This document shows, in pieces, positions 6,751 to 61,878 of a stretch of DNA of 64,000 nt. The translations under genes and the position numbers were made by a program. Position 1 is the first letter of the stretch; each line of letters starts with the position of its first letter. This stretch comes from Rhizomicrobium sp. (GTDB lineage Bacteria; Pseudomonadota; Alphaproteobacteria; Micropepsales; Micropepsaceae): assembly GCA_037200045.1 (NCBI GenBank), contig JBBCHM010000001.1, forward strand, positions 992,001 through 1,056,000. Reading direction: 5' to 3'. The notes beneath the pieces were generated by a model. That model worked only from the letters and a program-made list of their open reading frames with translations. It searched no databases and had not been told where the DNA came from.

Positions 6751-6916
6751 CTGGTGTCCTGAACCAGAAGTTCGCAGAATTTAGAACAAGGTGTCATGGC
6801 CCGCGACTGCGGGCCACCCAGGTGAAATCTGCCGCGGTCGTGCAGGTTTCACCTGGGTCCGCCGCATTCGCGGCGGATGACATTGAGTGCTGCGAACTTC
6901 TGACTCAGGAGACCAG
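6751..6916. repeat. Nested palindromic element, copy 1 (MITE-like, 166 bp)
   Basis: Outer inverted repeats of 27 bp at 6751-6777 and 6890-6916 match at 24 of 27 positions. Inside lie two REP-like arms: tgtcat plus a hairpin (ggcccgc/gcgggcc) plus acccag on the left, and the mirrored arm with a different stem (ccgccgc/gcggcgg) on the right. A second copy with the same architecture lies at 45801-45963. No ORF or transposase is inside, so it is non-autonomous if mobile. It fills much of the gap between rpsA and the VOC gene. Confidence 0.85.
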
Positions 6917-6926
6917 AAGCATACAC

Positions 6927-6984
6927 CTGGGTCCCCGCACGTTGTCGCTATGGGACCCCTCGCTTCGCTCGGCCGGGGATGACG
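6927..6984. repeat. Degenerate REP-like hairpin, ccccg-type
   Basis: Read from the minus strand this is cgtcat followed by a cccc.../...gggg stem with a long loop and acccag, the same flanking words as the other REP-like copies but with a longer, poorly conserved loop. It follows the 166-bp element directly. The rest of the 6985-7338 stretch has no gene I can support; a 102-codon frame from 7107 whose stop overlaps the VOC start looks like chance. Confidence 0.5.
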
Positions 6985-27701: not shown

Positions 27702-27758
27702 AGAGGCGGTTGTTTTCAAGCTAACGCACCTATACCGGTGTCATGGCCCGCGAATGCG

Positions 27759-28921
27759 AGGGCTTTGCATAAGTCGTGGGTTCTGATTCTCTTTTGCGGC
27801 GTTGATCGTGGGAGAATCGGATGTCGGAACGCGTGGTTGGGCAGCTGGGTTTTGCCGACCGTGAGGTGTTCGAGGCGGCCGGGAGCAATGCGATGCTCGA
27901 ACGGGTCGTCTCGCTTGTCGACTGGTCGGCGGTCGAGGCCCTTTTGCAGCCGATCCATGGCGGCACGATGGGCGCGCCGGCCTATCCCTCGCTGATGATG
28001 TTCAAGGCGTTGCTGCTGCAGCGGTGGTATGCGCTGTCGGACGTGGCGCTGGAAGAGGCGCTGAAGGACCGGCTGTCGTTCCGCGGCTTCCTGGGCGTTG
28101 GACTGGGGGAGAAGCTGCCCGATCATTCGAGCCTGTGGCGGTTCCGCGAGGCTCTGGGCCGCGAACTGGCGCAACGGGTGTTCGGCGAGATCGTCCGGCA
28201 GATCGAGGGGGCCGGTTTTGTCCTGAAGCAAGGCACGCTGATCGACGCCTCGCTGATCGCGGCGGCGGTCAATCCGCCGCCCAAGCCGCGCGAGCCCTTG
28301 GCGCCCGACGCGGATGGCCGCCCGGCGAGCAAGCTCGTCAAAAGCGCGCTCGACGGCGACGCGGCCTGGACCAAGAAGAACGGCGTGCGCCACTTCGGCT
28401 ACAAGCTGCATGTGGCGATGGACAAGGGCGGGCGCATCCTGCGCCGCTTTCTGTTCACGCCCGCCAACATCAACGAGAGTGCCGTCGCCGATGGCCTGAT
28501 CTGCGGCGACGAGGCCGCCGTCCATGCCGACAAGGCCTATGACAGCAAGGCGCGCAGCGAGATGCTGGCCGGCTTGGGCATCGAGAACGCCATCATGCGA
28601 CGCGGCCATCCCAAGAAGCCGCTGACCCGCGCCGAGATCGCCCGCAACAAGCAGCTGGCCAAGCAGCGCGGCGCCATCGAGCCGATCTTCAACCTCTTCA
28701 AGAATGTCCATGGCCTGGCCCGCGCCCGATACCGAAGCCTGGCGCGCAACGCCACGGCCTTCGCCCTCGCCGCCGTCGTCATCAACCTCAAGCGATGGGC
28801 ACAAAGCCAAACCGCCCAGGCCTGAGCCGCCCAAGGCGGGTTCCAACACGCCAACCGGCCAAGACCCAACGGCCGACCAATGCCAAAATCCACTCAAAGC
28901 GCCTAACTTATGCAAAGCCCT
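27759..28921 (+). mobile_element. IS5-family insertion sequence
   Basis: 1163 bp bounded by 15-bp perfect terminal inverted repeats agggctttgcataag (27759-27773) and cttatgcaaagccct (28907-28921), with one complete transposase gene. A clean short target duplication is not obvious because the flanks are themselves an inverted repeat (see REP-like arms). The TIRs and the uninterrupted DDE gene suggest a recent, possibly active copy. Confidence 0.92.
27821..28825 (+). CDS. IS5-family transposase
   Basis: 334 residues, intact. N-terminal DUF772-type region (YPSLMMFKALLLQRWYALSDVALEEALKDRLSFRGFLG), then a DDE catalytic domain: GTLIDASLI (first Asp), VHADKAYDSK (second Asp), and RGAIEPIFNLFK (Glu in the Y/R-x-x-x-E region). 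The ending LARYRSLARNATAFALAAVVINLKR is typical of IS5 group proteins. It catalyses cut-and-paste transposition at the 15-bp terminal repeats. Codon use and GC content look like the host, so compositional evidence of foreign origin is weak. Confidence 0.95.
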   Translation: MSERVVGQLGFADREVFEAAGSNAMLERVVSLVDWSAVEALLQPIHGGTMGAPAYPSLMMFKALLLQRWYALSDVALEEALKDRLSFRGFLGVGLGEKLPDHSSLWRFREALGRELAQRVFGEIVRQIEGAGFVLKQGTLIDASLIAAAVNPPPKPREPLAPDADGRPASKLVKSALDGDAAWTKKNGVRHFGYKLHVAMDKGGRILRRFLFTPANINESAVADGLICGDEAAVHADKAYDSKARSEMLAGLGIENAIMRRGHPKKPLTRAEIARNKQLAKQRGAIEPIFNLFKNVHGLARARYRSLARNATAFALAAVVINLKRWAQSQTAQA

Positions 28922-29013
28922 CGCATTCGCGGGCCATGACAATTCTGGTCTGATGATTCCAGCAGATCGCAGTCGGCTCTAGAATCCACCCCTCAAGGGG
29001 AGGGTAAGAGCAC

Positions 29014-34018: not shown

Positions 34019-34096
34019 CGTCATCGCCCGCTTTATGCGGGCGATCCAATTTGGCAGTAGTGAAGATGGATTGCCCGGACAAGCCGGGCAATGACG
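34019..34096. repeat. REP-like bipartite repeat, convergent tyrosinase/SDR gap
   Basis: Arms cgtcat-cgcccgc-...-gcgggcg-atcca and, mirrored, cgtcat-tgcccgg-...-ccgggca-atcca. The two hairpins differ in sequence but both pair. It may terminate transcription from both sides. Confidence 0.75.
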
Positions 34097-42606: not shown

Positions 42607-42729
42607 TGTCATGGCCCGCGAATGCGGGCCACCCAGTTGAAAGCGGTAGCGTGCCCGCAATTTTCGTGACTCGATTTTGCAGGTCCATGCCGTCGTCATC
42701 TGGGTGGCCCGCATTCGCGGGCCATGACA
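42607..42729. repeat. REP-like bipartite repeat between chvI and chvG
   Basis: Perfect 30-bp inverted arms at 42607-42636 and 42700-42729, each tgtcat plus ggcccgc-gaat-gcgggcc plus acccag. This is the cleanest copy in the window. It separates the response regulator from its kinase, so a strong RNA structure is expected in their common transcript. Short frames read through the repeat (WPANAGHP-type peptides) are artefacts. Confidence 0.9.
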
Positions 42730-45800: not shown

Positions 45801-45963
45801 CTGGTGTCCTGAACCAGAAGTTCGCTGAATTCAAAACAAAGGTGTCATGGCCCGCGACTGCGGGCCACCCAGTTGAAATCTGCTGCGGCGGTGCAGATTT
45901 CAGCTGGGTCCGCCGCATTCGCGGCGGATGACACCGAGTGGGGTGAACTTCTGGCTCGAGACT
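45801..45963. repeat. Nested palindromic element, copy 2 (MITE-like)
   Basis: The left part is nearly identical to 6751-6830: ctggtgtcctgaaccagaag, then REP-like arms with ggcccgc-gact-gcgggcc. The right outer arm is more diverged, ending next to the greA stop codon (45964). Same length and same order as copy 1. Confidence 0.8.
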
Positions 45964-46437
45964 CTAAACGAACTCGACCTTCAAAATCTCATACGACCGC
46001 GCGCCGCCGGGGGTGGTGACTTCCACCGTGTCGCCCTTGCCCTTGCCGATCAGGGCGCGCGCGATCGGCGAGGACAGCGAAATCCTGCCGCGCTTCACGT
46101 CGCTCTCCACGTCGCCGACGATCTGGTATTTGCGCTTCTCGTCGGAATCCTCGTCGACCAGCGTCACGGTCGCGCCGAACTTCACGGTGGCGCCGCTCAG
46201 CTTGGAGACGTCGATCACCTCGGCGCGGCCGATCTGGTCCTCGAGCTCCATCACGCGGCCCTCGATGAAGCTCTGGCGCTCCTTGGCGGCGTGATACTCG
46301 GCGTTCTCCGACAGATCGCCATGGGCGCGCGCTTCCGCGATCGCCTTGATGATCTCGTGGCGTTCGACGTTCTTGAGGTGGTTCACCTCGTCTTCGAGGG
46401 CCTTGTAGCCCGCGGCGGTCATCGGAATGCGTTCCAT
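45964..46437 (-). CDS. greA: Transcription elongation factor GreA
   Basis: 157 residues from ATG 46437. [55 protein letters not shown] is the coiled-coil domain with the acidic tip (GDLSENAEY) that enters the RNA polymerase channel and stimulates cleavage of backtracked RNA. The C-terminal FKBP-like part ends [23 protein letters not shown]. Upstream 46438-46628 to the carB stop contains the promoter. The 3' end abuts the MITE-like repeat. Confidence 0.97.
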
Positions 46438-56235: not shown

Positions 56236-56263
56236 CTGGATGCCCGCCCGCGCGGGCATGACA
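56236..56263. repeat. Single REP-like hairpin upstream of the small membrane protein pair
   Basis: On the minus strand: tgtcat, gcccgc-gcgg-gcgggc, atccag. One arm only. The stem differs from other copies but still pairs. It lies in the divergent gap between the ABC ATPase and the first small membrane protein gene. Confidence 0.65.
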
Positions 56264-59929: not shown

Positions 59930-60024
59930 ATTGTCATGGCCCGCGAATGCGGGCCACCCAGGTGACACCTGCGCCGCCGGTGCAATCGTCAACTGGGTCC
60001 GCCGCATTCGCGGCGGATGACAAT
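59930..60024. repeat. REP-like bipartite repeat
   Basis: Arms attgtcat-ggcccgc-gaat-gcgggcc-acccag and a mirrored arm with stem ccgccgc-gaat-gcggcgg. The two stems have different sequences yet each pairs. Lies between the thiolase-like and beta-lactamase-fold genes. Confidence 0.85.
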
Positions 60025-61783: not shown

Positions 61784-61878
61784 TGTCATCGCCCGCGAAT
61801 GCGGGCGACCCAGGTGACGCAAGGAAATTCCCGACGGGGAAGCGTCAACTGGGTGGCCCGCATTGGCGGGCCATGACA
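61784..61878. repeat. REP-like bipartite repeat
   Basis: Left arm tgtcat-cgcccgc-gaat-gcgggcg-acccag, right arm (mirrored) tgtcat-ggcccgc-caat-gcgggcc-acccag. One base of the left stem at each side is exchanged (c/g against g/c) relative to 42607, a compensatory change. Confidence 0.85.

Follow-up and report, generated by a model that had tools for sequence, protein, structure and literature searches.

Here we asked what kind of repeat is formed by the pair of mirrored palindromes at 42607-42729, and what may have spread and preserved it and its relatives between the genes of this genome. The window is the whole 64-kb stretch of DNA that was analysed (G000:C1:992001-1056000, from a genome of 4.73 Mb in three contigs, called G000 below). 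A sequence-only reading of it had described REP-like palindromes in at least nine intergenic places, most of them as mirrored pairs and with compensatory changes in their stems. It had concluded from this pattern that the hairpin itself is the object of selection or of a copying mechanism, and had found the tcat before the hairpin reminiscent of the tetranucleotide used by RAYT transposases.

The hairpins of the window and of the genome

At 42607-42729 two mirrored arms, each TGTCAT-GGCCCGC-GAAT-GCGGGCC-ACCCAG, face each other over 123 bp; this pair is an A-type homodimer, with GGCCCGC stems in both arms. The pattern GTCATN{20,24}CCAG matched 13 times in the window, against a mean of 1.9 (largest 5) in shuffled sequence, and ten of the 13 matches are arms that form five A-type pairs, namely 42607/42729 itself, 6792/6882, 45843/45933, 59932/60022 and 61784/61878. 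The other four pairs are heterodimers: those at 6792-6882 (GGCCCGC arm on the left, CCGCCGC arm on the right, cloverleaf fold), 45843-45933 and 59932-60022 are 91 bp long, and that at 61784-61878 (CGCCCGC/GGCCCGC) is 95 bp long. The covariance model added a B-type pair of 78 bp at 34019-34096, with CGTCAT arms (34020-34049 and 34066-34095) and 5-nt loops TTTAT and CTTGT, and a C-type single arm on the reverse strand at 56236-56263 (56236-56262 in the match of the model), which reads TGTCAT-GCCCGC-gcgg-GCGGGC-ATCCAG. One more place is interrupted by an insertion sequence (IS) that adjoins the outer halves of A-type arms at 27739-27757 (forward strand) and 28923-28941 (reverse strand). About nine places of the window are occupied, as had been claimed, though by three subfamilies (A, B and C), and the mirrored arrangement holds for five A-type pairs and one B-type pair. 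Rfam at its gathering thresholds matched only a tRNA.

The palindromes proved to be a real genome-wide family, and the idea that the genome might hold only these few copies fell with 271 matches to GTCATN{17,20}AYCCAG in the whole of G000, against 2 for the reversed control; a covariance-model search of the genome gave at least 150 matches, at least 109 of them with 52 bits, the highest score. When 550 kb of G000 were scanned with a finder that requires a near-perfect stem, 100 arms, a few of them probably due to chance, fell into 57 clusters, ordered as 39 (+,-) pairs, two (+,-,-) groups and 16 single arms, with no (-,+) pair. The A-type dimers of these 550 kb form the two main classes, heterodimers of a GGCCCGC and a CCGCCGC arm (14, of 85-91 bp) and homodimers of two GGCCCGC arms (10, of 100-130 bp), beside five B and C dimers of 74-81 bp. 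Counts of the pattern span 3 to 331 across 37 genomes from the genus, not all of which are complete, the highest being that of G034, and in named genomes the A pattern was found in at least 118 stretches which, among the 80 matches listed, belong mainly to alphaproteobacterial MAGs, Bradyrhizobium and Rhodopseudomonas included, which suggests an alphaproteobacterial host for G000 as well.

Besides homodimers, other species have, among the matches listed, recurring partnerships of unlike arms, for example with loop CTTGT joined to TTTAT or TTCAT in G016 and loop AAAA joined to CGGAGA in G033. In several species a 13-nt core, TAGCGACAGCGTA, lies inside REP-arm loops at eight of 11 distinct places (L036, L038, L057, L097, L137, L158, L235 and L246) and stands alone at the other three (L088, L190 and L214). 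The core is constant and its neighbours vary, yet they remain mutually complementary (for example ttcg/cgaa, gtcca/tggac and gttga/tcaac), so that it looks like another palindrome family nested within REP hairpins.

Covariation of the stems and position relative to genes

In 54 distinct 29-mers taken from G000, its sister G028 and named contigs, part of them from the at least 118 contig stretches found by a pattern that already fixes part of the stem, 95.8% of the cells are paired, and both-side stem changes occupy 44 cells against 9.5 in shuffles, with none of 500 shuffles as high. Such changes occur at six of the eight stem pairs, none of the 500 shuffles reached any of five measures, and with the partner shifted by 1 to 3 columns the pairing of these 54 arms falls to 34-41%. 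Among 87 places in G000 chosen by flanks and length only, 82 pair at 7/7 stem positions and five at 6/7. The compensatory changes proposed from the window are supported.

As single-stranded DNA the 123-nt homodimer is predicted to fold into one long hairpin and the 91-nt heterodimer into a cloverleaf. A conserved cloverleaf of the whole heterodimer was considered and rejected: in its central spacer 72% of the cells pair over 17 rows, against 31-51% when slid; the central stem, with 7 both-side cells and a shuffled mean of 9.9, is without covariation, and for this reason constraint is claimed for the arms only.

The hairpins sit between genes, and seldom between divergent ones. Genes were called by a crude, codon-based caller, which takes 77% as coding and often sets starts too far upstream. 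By these calls, 26 of the 30 clusters found in 400 kb fall between genes, where random placement puts 6.2 on average and at most 14 in 2000 draws, in agreement with the intergenic placement read from the window. By type of gap, 21 of the 30 clusters are tandem, 8 convergent and 1 divergent, against 113, 37 and 41 among all gaps of at least 30 bp.

Assignment to the CGTC-tagged REPs

The A, B and C types belong to the superfamily of CGTC-tagged REPs, with TGTC as variant tag. In the sections on these repeats on which we draw, Di Nocera et al. 2013 (PMC3733652) describe a CGTC or TGTC tag with AT beside it, stems of 8 or 9 bp, loops of 4 or 5 nt, a CCA tail, and head-to-head dimers, heterodimers included, mostly in alphaproteobacteria; their CGTC-1 type takes in Neisseria dRS3 and Rickettsia RPE-6. 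The same sections give these repeats no dedicated transposase and no Y1 gene flanked by them, and leave it as a question whether RAYTs or other transposases are their movers.

In our material the tag is TGTC in the A and most C types and CGTC in the B type. The A type has a stem of 7 bp plus a T-A pair and a loop of 4 nt, the B type has a loop of 5 nt, the tail is CCAG or CCA, and the A of the tag-side AT has a pairing partner only in arms with an ATCC tail; dimers are head-to-head (39 of the 57 clusters, none in the reverse order). These hairpins are like CGTC-1 REPs, as described in the sections cited, in their CGTC/TGTC tag, adjacent AT, 8-bp stem, 4-nt loop and CCA tail, in their head-to-head dimers with heterodimers among them, in their mostly alphaproteobacterial hosts and in having no dedicated transposase. 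They differ in that the A-type tail is here usually ACCCAG, so that only the T of the AT pairs, and in that two dimer size classes stand side by side, one of them often the core of an IS630 MITE. The B-type arms resemble the CGTC families described there with a 9-bp stem and a 5-nt loop.

The question of a Y1 transposase

A Y1/RAYT transposase is not serving the hairpin family in this genome today. Searching the whole of G000, which is rated 96% complete so that a missed Y1 gene is possible, gave no match to PF01797 at E<=1, and there was none in the sister G028 or in G034, the genome with the most copies; in the controls ten of 14 genomes matched, six of them above the cut-off. Across the genus Y1 genes above the cut-off are found in 13 of 41 members. 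We looked at a tie between copy number and Y1 genes and discarded it, there being no association over 37 genomes: the median copy density is 8.7 per Mb in the 12 with Y1 and 12.6 in the 25 without (Mann-Whitney p=0.49). Of 28 Y1 loci in the genus, three have CGTC arms in their vicinity, each to one side, and at none of the 28 do arms lie on both sides. REPs linked to RAYTs carry a GTAG-type tag, and the arms studied here carry TGTC or CGTC, the tag of another REP superfamily; the suggested link to a RAYT is not supported.

An IS5-family element in REP hairpins

The IS that splits one place of the window is an IS5-family element at 27758-28922 (forward strand), with terminal inverted repeat GAGGGCTTTGCATAAGT and a transposase ORF at 27821-28825 (NF033581, 2.2e-71). 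G000 has two copies, which differ at 6 of 1165 bases and lie each between inverted outer half arms, TGTCATGGCCCGCGAATGC, and G085 (two copies) and G019 (one copy) have relatives of 73% and 71% identity. These five are the only matches of more than 1 kb in 69 genomes, and every one of them abuts REP half arms, after the loop plus GC. One G085 copy (L300) interrupts just one arm of a dimer and leaves the partner arm intact; GCGAAAGC stands at either end of the copy and the inner half of the interrupted arm is still there, which amounts to a loop insertion with an 8-bp repeat, and the G019 copy likewise splits a single arm; in the four copies other than L300 the loop sequences differ between the two sides. 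A pattern search of 550 kb of G000 returned no solo symmetrical hairpin as a target for the IS, one degenerate hairpin of this kind appeared in an alignment near 1199867 of G000, and the plasmid collection held only partial IS5 matches. To judge from its junctions, the IS5-family element inserts into hairpin loops and uses REPs as targets. In the part of Tobes and Pareja 2006 (PMC1525189) on which we draw, REP-targeting ISs such as ISRm22 likewise insert at the axis of the palindrome, with some imperfect direct repeats, and for ISRm22 recombination between copies was suggested to account for such repeats; unlike them, the element described here is of the IS5 family and one copy, with equal sides, has an 8-bp repeat that spans the loop.

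Short heterodimers as cores of an IS630-type MITE

Flank identity over the nearest 20 bp on each side is 0.47 in 13 G000 heterodimers of exactly 91 bp, against a background of 0.25, and 0.29 in ten G000 homodimers, a class without conserved sequence outside the arms. The common ends of the heterodimers are GTGTCCTGAACCAGAAGTTCGC at the GGCCCGC side and GTGTCCCGAGTCAGAAGTTCGC at the CCGCCGC side. Searched genome-wide with up to 3 mismatches, the end was found at 25 places, against 0 for the control, and two of the 25 face each other, 1209 bp apart, as the ends of a resident IS630 at G000:C1:2464291-2465499. This element has an uninterrupted ORF of 362 aa (NF033545 of NCBIfam, 1.7e-79, above cut-off; Pfam DDE_3, 4.2e-20) and CTAG on either side, for which IS630 reportedly has a preference. 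Of the 23 ends outside it, 21 are accompanied by REP arms no more than 260 bp away, for the most part 30-50 bp inward, and two (L339 and L350) have no REP arm. The IS630 of G028 differs at 6 of the 1209 bases and stands in unrelated surroundings, with no flank match to the G000 place. A relative of 72% identity is present in four copies in G085, where the eight ends matched, by a pattern that itself required TAG, all read CTAGTGTCC.

Two of the MITEs defined by these ends lie in the window, at 6754-6913 (heterodimer 6792-6882, ends 6755-6775 and 6892-6912) and at 45804-45964 (heterodimer 45843-45933, ends 45805-45825 and 45943-45963); no adjoining MITE end was found at the heterodimer 59932-60022. 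The first 23 bases of the MITE at 45804-45964 are 100% identical to the IS630 end, and the common R end of the MITEs agrees with that end at 20 of 22 bases. The MITE measures about 160 bp, with a short heterodimer, mostly of 91 bp, as its core, and its parts follow each other as L end, GG arm, CC arm and R end in all ten copies examined, nine from G000 and one from G028, the right arm of one copy being chimeric. Of the 20 dinucleotides just outside these copies nine are TA and 11 are TG or CA, with no other; the dinucleotides of the two sides agree in none of the ten copies, nine having TA on one side only and one having TG and CA. IS630-type elements are described in the part of PMC2170065 cited here as inserting at TA and duplicating it, and the MITE flanks point to TA, an intact duplication being seen in none of the ten copies. 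End match, single internal order, TA/TG/CA flanks and uninterrupted resident transposase gene together point, at the level of sequence comparison, to an IS630-type vehicle, and we infer that the resident IS630 transposase would move the MITE in trans.

How far the vehicle extends was read from a flank profile built from six G000 short heterodimers and scored in both orientations with a threshold of 15 bits. It exceeded this threshold in 8 of 20 held-out G000 short heterodimers and in four of seven in G028, besides recognising its six source dimers and one G000 dimer of the class 'other'. In G000 it recognised none of 12 homodimers, three long heterodimers, four B and three C dimers, in G028 none of eight dimers of the homodimer, long heterodimer, B and C classes, and in named contigs none of 100 dimers; two of 400 random intergenic pairs passed, and these may be MITE flanks themselves. 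Since the MITE ends lie at a minority of dimers and at none of the 12 homodimers, the MITE explains part of one subclass and not the pair at 42607-42729.

Two side observations concern the surroundings of MITEs. A weak hairpin match (21 bits, covariance model) at 6927-6983 directly adjoins the MITE at 6754-6913, and at L327 a C-type dimer stands some 70-120 bp outside the MITE end at G000 C1:365700, beside a MITE-borne A-type heterodimer.

The abbreviated genus names in A. variabilis and H. neapolitanus, the hosts of two nested repeats compared here, we take to be Anabaena and Halothiobacillus. In the section of PMC3733652 on GTAG-15 (A. variabilis) and CGTC-1 (H. neapolitanus), as here, a REP dimer has a fixed place in a longer palindrome; there the palindromes are taken as targets and that section names no IS, whereas here the outer ends match a resident IS630 and TA-like dinucleotides lie outside them. 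Correia and RUP elements, classed as IS630-derived MITEs in the part of PMC2817692 cited, also have ends that match a full-length IS630 and TA-type flanks; the interior here is a REP heterodimer in place of IS remnants, and is better conserved than the ends. Titles and abstracts in the open-licence literature yielded no report of CGTC REPs inside IS630 MITEs; the IS630-MITE link of the short heterodimers and the better conservation of the arms are the new parts of this work.

Turnover of the hairpins and conservation of their arms

Both flanks of 23 of the 30 G000 clusters (400 kb) are matched in G028, and the 15 short alignments among these were inspected. At seven of the 15 places the same subfamily is present in both genomes, at two G028 has another subfamily, and at six it has no arm recognised by the finder; at one of these six, 1034607, it has a different palindrome instead of the dimer. 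No clean empty site or insertion junction was found among the G000-G028 orthologous sites, because intergenic DNA is too divergent between the two genomes. At one place the arm types of a heterodimer are swapped, as if inverted or as if the arms had been replaced (G000 C1:959947-960037, G028 C1:776426-776511), and at another a 128-bp dimer differs by one base, with longer flanks about 91% identical (G000 C1:1217591-1217718, G028 C1:990885-991012).

In six orthologous dimers the arms are identical at 336 of 360 bases (93%), the spacers at 164 of 332 (49%) and the 50-bp flanks at 442 of 633, a contrast of arms and spacers that is an upper bound since the six were picked for arms recognised in both genomes (1242023, with a degenerate G028 arm, was excluded). 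All 60 arm bases agree in three of the six, one of the six is the heterodimer at 959947 with swapped arm types, and in the dimer at 1213250 a compensatory change separates the two left stems. Unlike spacers could also stem from separate insertions at one site. Within the MITE, arm columns are 0.98 identical and all others 0.79 (p=4.6e-9) in seven G000 copies, a set that leaves out the two of nine with broken arms; in all nine, identity is 0.91 and 0.94 in the arms, 0.84 and 0.76 in the ends and 0.74 in the spacer. Transposition by IS630 would need the ends and not the arms, and the better preservation of the arms suggests selection or conversion acting on them. Something beyond transposition seems to preserve the arms, and from the identity by region we infer that their upkeep may be due to selection or to conversion.

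Spread and upkeep of the family

Taking all the results together, we consider it probable that these are CGTC-tagged REPs that have no Y1 mover now, that part of their short heterodimers have spread by way of an IS630-type MITE and that their arms are kept. A miniature element with ends of the IS630 family would have picked up the short A-type heterodimer, apparently on a single occasion, and an IS630 transposase, of Tc1/mariner type and acting at TA, would then have amplified MITE and heterodimer together. In the inserted copies the outer ends and the spacer would decay, and the arms would be held, either because the hairpin is under selection or because copies convert one another. The earlier view, which saw the hairpin as the target of selection or of a copying mechanism, is in this way partly borne out: one subclass is copied, as part of an IS630-type MITE, and the arms are the better conserved part of the element.

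Three other explanations have to be set against this one. A RAYT-type REP/REPIN system, in which dimers would be moved by a Y1 HUH transposase that cuts one strand at their tetranucleotide tag, would account for the REPIN-like architecture (a hairpin with an unpaired tag, inverted dimers, intergenic position) and would fit the Y1 genes found in 13 of the 41 members of the genus, of which G016, G026 and G008 have many copies, and the three Y1 loci with CGTC arms nearby, and an earlier Y1 gene that has since been lost is conceivable. We nevertheless hold it to be very improbable, given that Y1 was not found in G000, G028 and G034, that copy density is not linked to it, that arms flank no Y1 locus on both sides, here or in the sections cited of Di Nocera et al. 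2013 (PMC3733652), and that the tag is not GTAG. That the dimers derive from the termini of the IS5-family element (27758-28922) and are moved by its transposase is suggested by the inverted TGTCATGGCCCGCGAATGC halves beside both G000 copies, and deserves next to no credence: the L300 copy of G085, with GCGAAAGC on both sides and the other arm of its dimer whole, is the ground for rejecting the element as the source of REP ends, and since it and the G019 copy split single arms, the IS enters the loop and the arms are not IS ends.

It is also unlikely, though less so, that the hairpins are not mobile now and are ancient structures kept by selection for a role in RNA or DNA, such as 3' end protection or supercoiling, and homogenised by gene conversion. 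The arms that outlast the spacers in dimers common to G000 and G028, the strong covariation of the stems and the bias towards tandem and convergent gaps all speak for such a static family; against it stand the six of 15 aligned places without a recognised arm in G028 and the two with another subfamily, the spread of pattern counts from 3 to 331 among the 37 genus genomes, some of them incomplete, and the MITE subclass, which has spread. The explanation by a MITE-borne subclass with preserved arms might be widened, in a conjecture that we offer as doubtful, to CGTC REPs in general: having no enzyme of their own, they would be captured as MITE interiors by whichever DDE IS is at hand (IS630 here), after which selection or conversion would keep only the arms while the ends of the vehicle rot, and most REPs would come to look like orphans.

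For the lineage, the genome with 271 matches, its sister and the genome with the most copies, in each of which no Y1 gene was detected, argue that these hairpins do not need one at present, although one may have been lost. The IS630 end match names a concrete vehicle for one subclass of the family, and because arms and spacers decay unequally, the spread of these hairpins can be told apart from their upkeep.
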